Origin: Hydrogenothermus marinus
GTDB lineage: Bacteria; Aquificota; Aquificia; Aquificales; Hydrogenothermaceae
Direction: 5' to 3'
DNA: 64,000 nt
NCBI RefSeq assembly: GCF_003688665.1
Contig: NZ_REFO01000011.1
Location: 248,001-312,000 of the forward strand
In this document: piece after piece, positions 23,812-51,464 of the stretch
Layout of the letters: every line of letters begins with the position of its first letter
Numbering within the stretch: position 1 is the stretch's first letter
Made by a program: the position numbers and the translations under genes
The notes under the pieces: model-generated
Database searches by the model: none
What the model saw: the letters and a program-made list of their open reading frames with translations, nothing else
What the model was told of the DNA's origin: nothing

Positions 23812-25098
23812 ATGGATAATTCTCTTGTTATTCTTGGTTCACAATGGGGAGATGAAGGAAAAGGAAAAATAGTTGATCTTTTAGCTGAAGATTTTGAATA
23901 TATAGTTAGATACCAAGGTGGAAGTAATGCAGGCCATACAGTAATTGTTGGAGATAAAAAGTATGCCCTTCATTTAATACCTTCAGGAATATTACATGAA
24001 GGTAAGAAAAATATTATTTCAAATGGTATGGTTGTTTCTTTTGAAGAGCTTTTAAAAGAGATGGATAAAGTAAAAGAAGTTGTTGGAGATTTTGAAGGAA
24101 AGCTTTTCATAAGTGATAGAGTCCATATTGTTTTTCCTCATCATAAAATCTTAGATATGCTTTCAGAAAAAGCAAAAGGAAAAAATAAAGTAGGTACTAC
24201 ATTAAAAGGAATTGGTCCTGCTTATATGTCTAAGTATGCAAGAACAGGAATAAGAATAGCAGATTTATATGATCCAAACTATTTTAGAACAAGACTTGAA
24301 TCTGCAGTTAATGAAGCAAAAGAAATAGCAGAAAAAGTATATGGAGAAACTATTAATATAGATTTAAATAAAGTTTACTTTGAAACATTAAAAATGTTTG
24401 AAAAAATAAAGCCTCTTGTAGCAGATACTTCATTAATGCTTTATAAAGCATTAAAAGGAAACAAAAAAGTTTTATTTGAAGGTGCTCAAGGAACAATGCT
24501 TGATATTGATATGGGAACTTATCCTTATGTAACATCCTCAAATTCTTCAGCTTTAGGACTTTGTAATGGTACAGGAGTTTCACCAAAGCAGATTGGAAAA
24601 GCAAAGGTTTATGGTGTAAGTAAAGCATATCTTACAAGAGTTGGAGCTGGTCCATTTCCTACAGAGCTAAACGATGGAATTGGTCAAAAACTAAGAGATG
24701 AAGGCCATGAATATGGAACAACTACAGGAAGACCAAGAAGATGTGGATGGCTTGATTTAGTAGCTTTAAGATTTGCATCTCGTATAAATGGAATGGATGG
24801 AATAATTATTACAAAATTAGATGTATTGGATCATTTTGACGAAATAAAAGTAGCTACTGCTTATGAGTATGAAGGAGAAATAATAAAAGATTTTCCTGCA
24901 TCTTTACAAGTTCTTGAAAAATGTAAACCTATTTACAAAACTTTAAAAGGCTGGGATAAATCAACAAAAGGAATAAAGAAAAAAGAAGATATTCCAAAAG
25001 AAGCTTGGAAATTTATAGAAACAATAGAAGAAGAGACAGAAACACCGGTAGTAATGCTTTCTACAGGCCCAGAAAGATCAGAATATGTATGGATATAG
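23812..25098 (+). CDS. purA: Adenylosuccinate synthetase
   Basis: A 428-residue enzyme joining IMP and aspartate with GTP, the first step from IMP to AMP. The P-loop-like GSQWGDEGKGK is at the N terminus, followed by QGGSNAGHTV, the IMP-site KVGTTLKGIGPAY, and GTTTGRPRRCGWLDL. I chose the ATG at 23812, nine bases after AGGAGG (23797-23802); the in-frame TTG at 23806 is only three bases from it and too close. It lies 17 bases after rph. Confidence 0.97.
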   Translation: MDNSLVILGSQWGDEGKGKIVDLLAEDFEYIVRYQGGSNAGHTVIVGDKKYALHLIPSGILHEGKKNIISNGMVVSFEELLKEMDKVKEVVGDFEGKLFISDRVHIVFPHHKILDMLSEKAKGKNKVGTTLKGIGPAYMSKYARTGIRIADLYDPNYFRTRLESAVNEAKEIAEKVYGETINIDLNKVYFETLKMFEKIKPLVADTSLMLYKALKGNKKVLFEGAQGTMLDIDMGTYPYVTSSNSSALGLCNGTGVSPKQIGKAKVYGVSKAYLTRVGAGPFPTELNDGIGQKLRDEGHEYGTTTGRPRRCGWLDLVALRFASRINGMDGIIITKLDVLDHFDEIKVATAYEYEGEIIKDFPASLQVLEKCKPIYKTLKGWDKSTKGIKKKEDIPKEAWKFIETIEEETETPVVMLSTGPERSEYVWI

Positions 25099-25242: not shown

Positions 25243-25271
25243 TTGACTTCGTTTCAAATTTTTATTATTAT
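25243..25271 (+). promoter_or_regulatory. Predicted housekeeping promoter of the cytochrome c peroxidase gene
   Basis: TTGACT at 25243-25248 and TATTAT at 25266-25271 are separated by exactly 17 bp, each one base from consensus. The -10 element lies inside the first copy of the AT-only repeat, so a protein bound there would block RNA polymerase. An alternative -10, TATAAT at 25269, would give a 20-bp spacer. Confidence 0.6.
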
Positions 25272-25307
25272 AATTAATAATAATTTTATTATTATAATTA
25301 ATAATAA
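25260..25307. repeat. 24-bp AT-only tandem repeat, two perfect copies
   Basis: Positions 25260-25283 and 25284-25307 are identical 24-bp units made only of A and T. Each unit is a near-palindrome around TATAATTAATAAT and is close to the PerR box pattern TTATAATnATTATAA. The repeats span the -10 region and early transcribed region of the peroxidase gene. The rest of the 25099-25242 spacer after purA shows no gene and no clear terminator. Confidence 0.8.
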
Positions 25308-25317
25308 TTATTATTAA
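25298..25317. promoter_or_regulatory. 20-bp perfect palindrome, Fur/PerR-like box
   Basis: The ten bases TTAATAATAA at 25298-25307 are followed by their exact inverted copy at 25308-25317. Inside it, 25299-25313 fits TAATAATnATTATTA, the 7-1-7 box described for Helicobacter pylori Fur. It ends against the AGGAGG of the peroxidase gene. Binding by the Fur-family protein encoded at 51015-51464 is an inference. Confidence 0.5.
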
Positions 25318-25328
25318 GGAGGATGGAA

Positions 25329-26396
25329 ATGAAAAAACTAACTGCAGTTTTAGGTTCAGCTTTGATGTTCTCAGTATCTTCTTTTGCTTCTGATACAGAT
25401 CTTTTAAATCAGGCAAAGAATCTTTTTAAACCTTTACCAAAAGTAGCTAATAATCCTGAAAATCCTGTAACACAAGTGAAAGTAAAACTTGGAAAAATGC
25501 TTTATTATGACACAAGACTTTCAAGAAGTAATATAATTAGCTGTAATTCTTGTCATAATTTAGCAAGATATGGAGTTGATAATACTCCAACATCTGTAGG
25601 ACATAAATGGGCAATAGGTCCAAGAAATGCTCCTACTGTTTACAATGCGGCTCTTCATATTGCTCAGTTTTGGGATGGAAGAGCAAAAGATGTAGAAGAA
25701 CAAGCATTAGGTCCTATATTAAATCCAATAGAAATGGGAATGCCTACGAAAGAAAGAGTTGTAAAGGTAGTAAAATCAATTCCTGAATATGTAGAACTTT
25801 TCAAAAAAGCTTTTCCAAATGATTCTGATCCTGTTAAATTTGAAAATATTGGAAAAGCTATTGGAGCTTTTGAAAGAACTTTAATGACTCCTTCAAGATT
25901 TGACGAATTTTTAAATGGAAATACAAATGCATTAACAAAAAAAGAAAAAAGAGGCCTAAAAACATTTATTTCAGTAGGTTGTGCAGGATGTCATAATGGC
26001 CCAGCTATAGGTGGAACAATGTTTATGAAATTTGGACAAGTTGAGGAATACTGGAAAGAAACTTATCCTTATGTATTAAAAGAATCTCCTGCAATAAAAG
26101 TTGATTTTGGTAGATTTGGAGTTACAAAAAATAAAGCAGATATGTTTGTATTTAAAGTACCATCTCTTAGAAATATAGCTGAAACTTATCCATACTTCCA
26201 TGATGGTAGTGTATGGAAATTAGAAGATGCAGTTAGAATAATGGCTAAAACACAGCTTGGTAAAGATTTAACAGATCAACAAGTTGAAGATATAGTTGCA
26301 TTTTTAAAATCTTTAACAGGAAAACTTCCTGAAGATGCTTTAAAAACACCTGTTTTACCACCATCAACAGATAAAACTCCAAAACCAGAGTTTTAA
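25329..26396 (+). CDS. Di-haem cytochrome c peroxidase, periplasmic
   Basis: A 355-residue exported protein of the CcpA/MauG family that reduces hydrogen peroxide with electrons from cytochrome c. A signal peptide (about residues 1-21, ending SSFA) precedes two haem c sites, C72-x-x-C75-H76 and C218-x-x-C221-H222. Family blocks FWDGRAKDVEEQALGPI and FKVPSLRNIAETYPYFHDG are intact. I set the start at the ATG at 25329, six bases after AGGAGG; the ATG at 25323 directly abuts that Shine-Dalgarno and cannot use it. The upstream AT dyads suggest control by a Fur/PerR-type regulator. A strong hairpin terminator follows. Confidence 0.94.
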   Translation: MKKLTAVLGSALMFSVSSFASDTDLLNQAKNLFKPLPKVANNPENPVTQVKVKLGKMLYYDTRLSRSNIISCNSCHNLARYGVDNTPTSVGHKWAIGPRNAPTVYNAALHIAQFWDGRAKDVEEQALGPILNPIEMGMPTKERVVKVVKSIPEYVELFKKAFPNDSDPVKFENIGKAIGAFERTLMTPSRFDEFLNGNTNALTKKEKRGLKTFISVGCAGCHNGPAIGGTMFMKFGQVEEYWKETYPYVLKESPAIKVDFGRFGVTKNKADMFVFKVPSLRNIAETYPYFHDGSVWKLEDAVRIMAKTQLGKDLTDQQVEDIVAFLKSLTGKLPEDALKTPVLPPSTDKTPKPEF

Positions 26397-31875: not shown

Positions 31876-32643
31876 TTATCCAAATTTTCCTGATACATAC
31901 TCTTCTGTTAATTTTTTAGAAGGTGATGTAAATATAATATCTGTTTTATCAAATTCAACAAGTTCTCCAAGATACATAAAAGCAGTATAATCTGAAACTC
32001 TTGCCGCTTGTTGCATATTATGAGTAACTATTATTATTGTTACATCTTTTTTTAGCTTAACAACTAATTCTTCAATTTTAGCAGTAGATATTGGATCTAA
32101 AGCAGATGTTGGCTCATCAAAAAGAAGCACTTCAGGCTCAACTGCTAAAGCCCTTGCTATCACTAATCTTTGTTGCTGACCACCTGATAAACCGTTAGCA
32201 GATTCATTTAATCTATCTTTAACTTCATCCCATAAAGCAGCTTCTTTTAATGCTTTTTCTACCTTTTCTTCTAAAACTTTTTTATCTTTTATTCCTCTTA
32301 ATTTTAAACCATAAGCCACATTATCAAATATGCTCATTGGAAATGGTGTTGGTTTTTGGAATACCATTCCAACTTTTGTTCTTAGTTTGATTAAATCATA
32401 ATCTTTGTCTAAGATATTTTCATTATCAAGTAAGATTTTACCTTCATATCTGTTTCCTTTATATAAGTCATGCATTCTATTGAAACATCTTAAAAGGGTA
32501 GTTTTTCCACATCCAGAAGGGCCTATTAAAGCAGTAACTTTATTTTCATATATAGGCATTGTAATACCTTTTAAAGAAGGTTCTTTTGCTCCTGCATACC
32601 AAAACTTCAGATTTTCAACTTTTATTTTTTCTTTTTCAGACAT
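31876..32643 (-). CDS. pstB: Phosphate ABC transporter ATPase
   Basis: A 255-residue ABC ATPase that powers phosphate import. Walker [10 protein letters not shown] is at about 37-45, the Q-loop in [13 protein letters not shown], the signature [11 protein letters not shown], Walker [14 protein letters not shown] and the H-loop VTHNMQQA. The [10 protein letters not shown] segment is specific to PstB. It is followed by phoU and lies 10 bp after pstA. Confidence 0.97.
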
Positions 32644-51014: not shown

Positions 51015-51464
51015 TTATTGTATTATATCTTCTTTTGAAGCACAATCTTTACAAAGTCCAAATATTTCTAATCTATGGAAAGTAGGTTTAAATCCATAAA
51101 TTTCACATATTTTATCTTGAAGTTCCTCTATCTCTTTTTCCTGAAATTCTATTATTTTTCCACAATTTGTACAGATAAGATGATCATGATGTTCTTTTAA
51201 GGATATTTCATATATTGTTTTATTATTAAATTTTATTACTTCTGTAACTATTCCTATCTCTTTTAGAATATTTAAAGTTCTATATACTGTAGCTCTTGAT
51301 ACATTTACATTTTTATTTTTTATTTTTTGAACAATATCTTCTATTTCAAAATGACCTTTAGTATTAAGAATCTCATCAAGTACTTTTTCTCTTTGAGATG
51401 TAAATTTTAAACCTTTTTCTTTAATAAATTTTTTAAACTCTTTTTTAGCAAAAGATTTATTCAT
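51015..51464 (-). CDS. fur: Fur-family transcriptional regulator
   Basis: A 149-residue metal-dependent repressor. The winged helix (about 20-85) contains TSQREKVLDEIL and SRATVYRTLNIL. The dimerisation part has HHDHLICTNCG and two CxxC zinc pairs, C98/C101 and C138/C141. Fur or PerR cannot be decided from sequence alone. A flavin reductase precedes it with a one-base overlap, which fits iron reduction or redox sensing. A candidate target is the AT-dyad region of the cytochrome c peroxidase at 25260-25317. Confidence 0.92.
   Translation of the reverse strand: MNKSFAKKEFKKFIKEKGLKFTSQREKVLDEILNTKGHFEIEDIVQKIKNKNVNVSRATVYRTLNILKEIGIVTEVIKFNNKTIYEISLKEHHDHLICTNCGKIIEFQEKEIEELQDKICEIYGFKPTFHRLEIFGLCKDCASKEDIIQ

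Follow-up and report, generated by a model that had tools for sequence, protein, structure and literature searches.

The PerR box of Bacillus subtilis has the consensus TTATAATNATTATAA. The PerR regulon of this species comprises ahpCF, katA, mrgA/Dps, fur and hem, and the histidines of PerR are oxidised by peroxide in an iron-catalysed reaction (PMC8115020). D104 has been described as pivotal for the peroxide sensitivity of PerR, and N61/R61 is the residue by which PerR and Fur of B. subtilis discriminate their boxes (PMC8638851). Leptospira PerRA represses katE, ahpC1 and ccp (PMC10294975), has the canonical N and is missing the structural cysteine motif (PMC8638851). Campylobacter jejuni PerR regulates its own gene besides ahpC and katA (PMC4491227), and the Fur box of Helicobacter pylori has been quoted as TAATAATnATTATTA (PMC4557348).

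Here, the promoter of ccp, a cytochrome c peroxidase gene, was analysed in a stretch of 64,000 nucleotides from the Hydrogenothermus marinus genome (the window; positions are counted from its first letter). The palindrome at 25296-25317 probably serves the ccp promoter as a PerR-type operator, at which a PerR-like protein would repress transcription and from which peroxide would release it. As in B. subtilis, the dyad is of the 7-1-7 type with a TAATNATTA core, a candidate Fur-family repressor carries H37, D85, H91, H93 and D104, and the predicted targets are peroxide scavengers together with Dps-like iron storage. Unlike in B. subtilis, the window core TAATAATAATTATTA differs from the PerR box consensus at 2 of the 14 specified positions, these being in the flanks, and R replaces N at position 61 of the protein. 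Furthermore, ccp, encapsulin and leuA are absent from the B. subtilis targets listed in PMC8115020. A cytochrome c peroxidase gene under predicted PerR control, together with ahpC and catalase, is a feature shared with Leptospira PerRA; the PerR-like protein of H. marinus differs from PerRA in having R and both CxxC motifs. The 15-bp core in the window palindrome is identical to that of the H. pylori Fur box, but in H. pylori Fur reads the box and controls iron-uptake and other genes, whereas here feoAB has another dyad. The presence of two Fur-family regulators is reminiscent of C. jejuni, where the two regulons overlap; here, in contrast, two separate dyads are found.

Results

Direct reading of the sequence confirmed the layout given in the original prediction, that is a TTGACT-17-TATTAT promoter followed by two perfect 24-bp AT repeats and a 20-bp palindrome reaching the Shine-Dalgarno sequence. 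The −35 element TTGACT is at 25243-25248 and the −10 element TATTAT, separated from it by a 17-bp spacer, at 25266-25271, both on the forward strand; a second −10-like TATAAT at 25269-25274 overlaps TATTAT and has a 20-bp spacing. TTGAC, a 17-bp spacer and a TATAAT-like −10 are found in several relatives (e.g. loci L032, L034 and L042). The two 24-bp units have the same sequence, TTTTATTATTATAATTAATAATAA: unit 1 (25260-25283) includes the −10 element and holds a 9-4-9 dyad at 25262-25283, and unit 2 (25284-25307) holds its 9-4-9 dyad at 25286-25307. The 3′ 10 bp of unit 2 are at the same time the left half of the perfect 20-bp palindrome TTAATAATAATTATTATTAA (25298-25317), the end of which runs into the Shine-Dalgarno sequence AGGAGG (25317-25322, forward strand), 6 nt before the ATG at 25329. 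The claim that the palindrome contains the H. pylori Fur box also holds, with an exact match to TAATAATnATTATTA (PMC4557348), and exact copies of TAATAATNATTATTA occur in two registers that overlap (25299-25313 and 25302-25316). The A/T-only tract around these elements is composed of TTA/TAA units and extends over 62 bp (25256-25317), the sole such run of at least 35 bp in the window, which has a G+C content of 27%.

The gene behind this promoter (25329-26396, forward strand) encodes a di-haem cytochrome c peroxidase according to its CCP_MauG domain (PF03150, E 4e-58), its similarity to solved cytochrome c peroxidases (E 1e-110) and its two CxxCH haem sites, and the protein has a signal-peptide-like N-terminus. 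The longest frame begins at 25323, but the start is probably the ATG at 25329 (MKKL...) because of its spacing from the Shine-Dalgarno sequence and the start in relatives. Upstream, purA lies on the same strand and ends at 25098; the next gene downstream is on the opposite strand, so that ccp looks monocistronic. In one genome of the neighbouring family (G033; family f2) ccp also adjoins purA, in a different orientation.

A dyad was present in all 21 aligned ccp promoters of the same family, between the −10 element and the start codon and 12-33 bp before the latter, with the 21-bp consensus TATTARTAATNATTAYTAATA, a single-base centre and the core TTARTAATNATTAYTAA. When a matrix was derived from these 21 promoters alone, without the H. 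marinus genome, it gave a score of 20.3 at 25296-25316, which is the predicted 21-bp PerR-type operator over the transcription start region. The next best score elsewhere in the window was 13.2 (at 32019, within an ABC-transporter gene), and a score of 20.3 was not attained with any of 300 matrices with permuted columns or in any of 60 second-order Markov sequences. The palindrome shares with PerR operators the form of a 7-1-7 inverted repeat and an overlap with the promoter, its place being immediately after the −10 element. Frequent occurrence of the AT pattern in unrelated spacers had been named as evidence that would count against the original prediction; this was looked for and found not to be so, the exact TAATAATNATTATTA pattern being confined in the 1.604-Mb genome to the regions upstream of ccp and of a ferritin-like gene. 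The other one-mismatch sites examined in this genome were intragenic, except for extra registers at the ferritin-like promoter. Loose dyad counts at up to 2 mismatches were of no help (about 9.6 dyads expected in the window from dinucleotide shuffles at ≤2 mismatches; only 2 registers observed, both at ccp). Judged from its conservation and from the matrix controls, the palindrome is a real, conserved predicted operator of the PerR type.

The position of unit 1 (25259-25279) scored 2.4 and is a non-site, against 20.3 for the palindrome, and the earlier view of the 24-bp repeats as PerR-like boxes was thus not borne out. Neither were three consecutive cooperative sites, since the conserved box is matched by the palindrome alone and is single in relatives. 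By this scoring the upstream units are no separate consensus boxes and the palindrome alone is the predicted box; the units may tune the promoter or its strength, or add weak half-sites. Unit 1 was not seen in the ccp promoters of the relatives and, because the matching segment is single-copy there, the tandem copy of the 24-bp unit is apparently a species-specific duplication. The order in relatives (TATAAT, one dyad, Shine-Dalgarno) is reproduced by unit 2 and the palindrome, which makes unit 1 look like a tandem duplication of the −10 element and the left half-site that preserved the 17-bp promoter spacing.

Searching the H. marinus genome with TTARTAATNATTAYTAA at ≤1 mismatch gave six matches: before genes for a Dps-like ferritin (PF00210, Arch_DPS-like) and an AhpC/TSA peroxiredoxin (PF00578), before leuA (an exact match; protein with HMGL-like and LeuA_dimer domains), two registers at ccp, and one intragenic site. 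In this genome search, which had been proposed as a check of the original prediction, the pattern also precedes other oxidative-stress genes. The dps promoter has two overlapping dyads after TTGACT. This site could not be footprinted because a search of the relatives brought up no close ortholog of the Dps-like protein but ferritin-like proteins at about 25-35% only. Among relatives the dyad was found before ccp, katG, ahpC, encapsulin, bacterioferritin, a sigma factor of about 280 aa, leuA, HU and the PerR-like gene, mostly 14-40 bp before the gene, where the names katG, encapsulin, sigma factor and HU were assigned by reading the protein sequences and not by family search. This distribution over genes of peroxide defence and iron storage (dps, ahpC, katG, encapsulin, bacterioferritin and ccp) resembles that of a PerR regulon. 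Operator-pattern sites were intergenic in 59 of 67 cases, compared to 5 of 24 non-overlapping backward-pattern sites (sites read; Fisher p 3e-9, a value that overstates independence since the genomes are related). A simple count of the backward pattern (94 vs 76 hits) was rejected as a control and is misleading, as the extended operator contains the backward pattern; it was dropped because many of the control hits were the same operators, and site position (intragenic or not), permuted matrices and Markov sequences took its place.

In most genomes of the family the dyad lies 12-21 bp before the start of leuA, the gene for 2-isopropylmalate synthase (L332-L353), and the site in H. marinus itself is at 2520-2536 of locus L225 (G000:C13:77800-82800). 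At the corresponding place before leuA, a related dyad (TTGAGAATTATTATCAT) is found in some f2 genomes. In many relatives (L235, L241, L249, L258, L276, L281 and L311) the dyad is found about 27-37 bp before the start of a gene for an RpoD-like sigma factor of about 280 aa, which suggests that this factor is under peroxide control. In five relatives (L231, L232, L236, L244 and L245) the dyad precedes the gene of an encapsulin-like shell protein with a ferritin-like gene downstream.

Another dyad, TTGAGATTNAATCTCAA, marks the feoA/feoB promoters: of the 18 genomes compared (feoA promoter of H. marinus, L391, and 17 other loci, L392-L408), nearly all have it with 0-2 mismatches, and one has it with 3. 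In G012 the best TTGAGATTNAATCTCAA match is away from feoA, which itself has a variant. The ccp-type dyad was found at none of the 18 feo loci (at least 3 mismatches) and in this respect does not behave as a Fur box, for which the same box would be expected before the iron-uptake genes of the lineage. TTGAGATTNAATCTCAA is probably the Fur box of the lineage. A natural division of labour would have Fur acting on the feo dyad and PerR on the ccp dyad, as we infer from association.

The genome encodes two Fur-family proteins. The Fur-family gene that the original prediction had pointed to is indeed present in the window (51015-51464, reverse strand; PF01475, with C. jejuni Fur as nearest solved relative), but its product is Fur-type, with E at the positions of D85 and D104 of B. 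subtilis PerR, and a PerR-type protein encoded outside the window (G000:C13:164067-164405) fits better. The latter has B. subtilis PerR as its best solved match and carries all five sensor residues of PerR (H37, D85, H91, H93 and D104). These five were present in 23 of 23 PerR-like proteins read, while E was found at positions 85 and 104 in 13 of 13 Fur-like proteins. The position of B. subtilis N61 does not follow PerR, being R in all 23 PerR-like proteins, and R is also found at the box-reading position of the Fur-type proteins. R61 in both kinds of protein is in keeping with a box closer to that of Fur, and the sequence therefore leaves room for binding by Fur. About 9 of the 23 PerR-like genes have the dyad in their own promoter (score ≥9; the H. 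marinus site is weak at 10.6). Among the 13 Fur-like promoters scored there was no such dyad, and the region upstream of the 51015-51464 gene had no ccp-type dyad. Two genomes of one genus, G013 and G020, have no PerR-like match, have kept the ccp dyad and have a Fur-type protein; G041 of the same genus has a PerR-like protein (63%). The PerR-like protein is the likely regulator of the ccp dyad, and the Fur-type protein of the window is probably not the main regulator of this site.

The window ccp is 65-72% identical to five matches in f2, versus 58-65% within its own family, and the dyad was not seen in the f2 ccp promoters even though their proteins are nearer to the window ccp. In the tree, which was midpoint-rooted only, the 21 family ccp genes and one outside sequence formed a branch with 100/100 support and the window ccp fell outside, closer to f2 sequences; the two Nitrospirota sequences adjoining it have long branches. 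By this topology the window ccp and the ccp genes of the relatives are not orthologs, yet they share the predicted operator, and a xenologous replacement is possible. A second ccp-like gene in the H. marinus genome (G000:C10:318733-319745) is apparently split in two frames, 53% and 64% identical. A contig scan with the ccp protein gave, among the matches listed, only distant relatives and none recognisable as belonging to the lineage.

Discussion

The data suggest a mechanism in which a metal-bound dimer of the PerR-like protein would occupy the dyad directly after the −10 element. An operator at this place covers the start region, and the bound dimer would be expected to block transcription of ccp. 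Hydrogen peroxide would then oxidise the metal-binding histidines and the repressor would leave the dyad, upon which ccp would be made alongside Dps/ferritin, the AhpC-type peroxiredoxin and, unexpectedly, the leuA product. From sequence we infer the identity of the binding protein, repression rather than activation, and release by peroxide. Relief had earlier been proposed to follow from either peroxide or iron loss; the target set points to peroxide, whereas iron loss would be the behaviour of Fur.

It is rather unlikely that, in the presence of ample iron, ccp is repressed by binding of the Fur-type protein of 51015-51464, alone or with PerR, to the dyad. Such control would account for the H. 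pylori Fur-box core in the dyad, for R at the box-reading position of both Fur-family proteins and for the ccp dyad and Fur-type protein of G013 and G020, which are without a PerR-like match, and it has a parallel in C. jejuni katA, which is controlled by both Fur and PerR (PMC4491227). On the other hand, the feoAB iron-uptake promoters carry their own conserved dyad, the region upstream of the fur gene of H. marinus lacks the ccp-type dyad, and the targets are peroxide defence and iron storage instead of iron uptake. A dyad-reading regulator from outside the Fur family would be in keeping with a consensus not identical to textbook PerR and Fur boxes, but the 7-1-7 geometry with its TAATNATTA core, the peroxide target set and, in several genomes, a dyad at the promoter of the PerR-like gene make such a protein a highly improbable reader of the ccp site.

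The TTA/TAA units, the 24-bp tandem duplication and the 27% G+C of the window could also reflect low-complexity slippage, or a tract that eases promoter opening, with no regulator bound. Given that the dyad is conserved at the same place in 21 relatives which share the gene set, that the exact pattern is absent from unrelated spacers of the genome, and considering the outcome of the permuted-matrix and Markov controls, this is very unlikely. A role in the mRNA, as an A-U hairpin in the leader ahead of the Shine-Dalgarno sequence, seems hardly credible. The leader (25278-25345) does fold at −8.3 kcal/mol at 37 °C with a z of −2.9, but the hairpin owes its long form to the duplication peculiar to this species, the leader has no fold at 68 °C, with nearly all leaders of relatives tried behaving likewise, and the dyad is found at variable distances before many genes that are unrelated. 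The hairpin was rejected.

Control of ccp by the PerR-like protein thus remains the preferred reading, and it would give a concrete predicted peroxide-response regulon for a deep-branching thermophilic lineage, in which each of two Fur-family proteins is paired with a separate operator. A full-text literature search found no description of a peroxide-response regulon in this lineage. The operator is ordinary in kind and apparently undescribed in the lineage in the literature searched. Of wider interest are the link between leuA and peroxide sensing, which is an unexpected prediction, and the possible hybrid PerR, which would have a box of its own. It is about as likely as not that this thermophile family has a hybrid PerR, with peroxide-sensing residues, a Fur-type DNA-reading residue and its own box, that links peroxide defence to ccp, Dps, encapsulin, leuA and a sigma factor, and whose control of ccp has been kept in spite of a non-orthologous ccp. 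That ccp genes which are not orthologous share one operator suggests that regulation was retained, or rebuilt, upon the change of enzyme gene.

As a separate observation, AATTATTATTAATAATT occurs in G005 in three exact copies with an operator-like score (L420, L421 and L422), one of them near a Cas2-like gene, and these copies are perhaps a CRISPR leader or repeat element.
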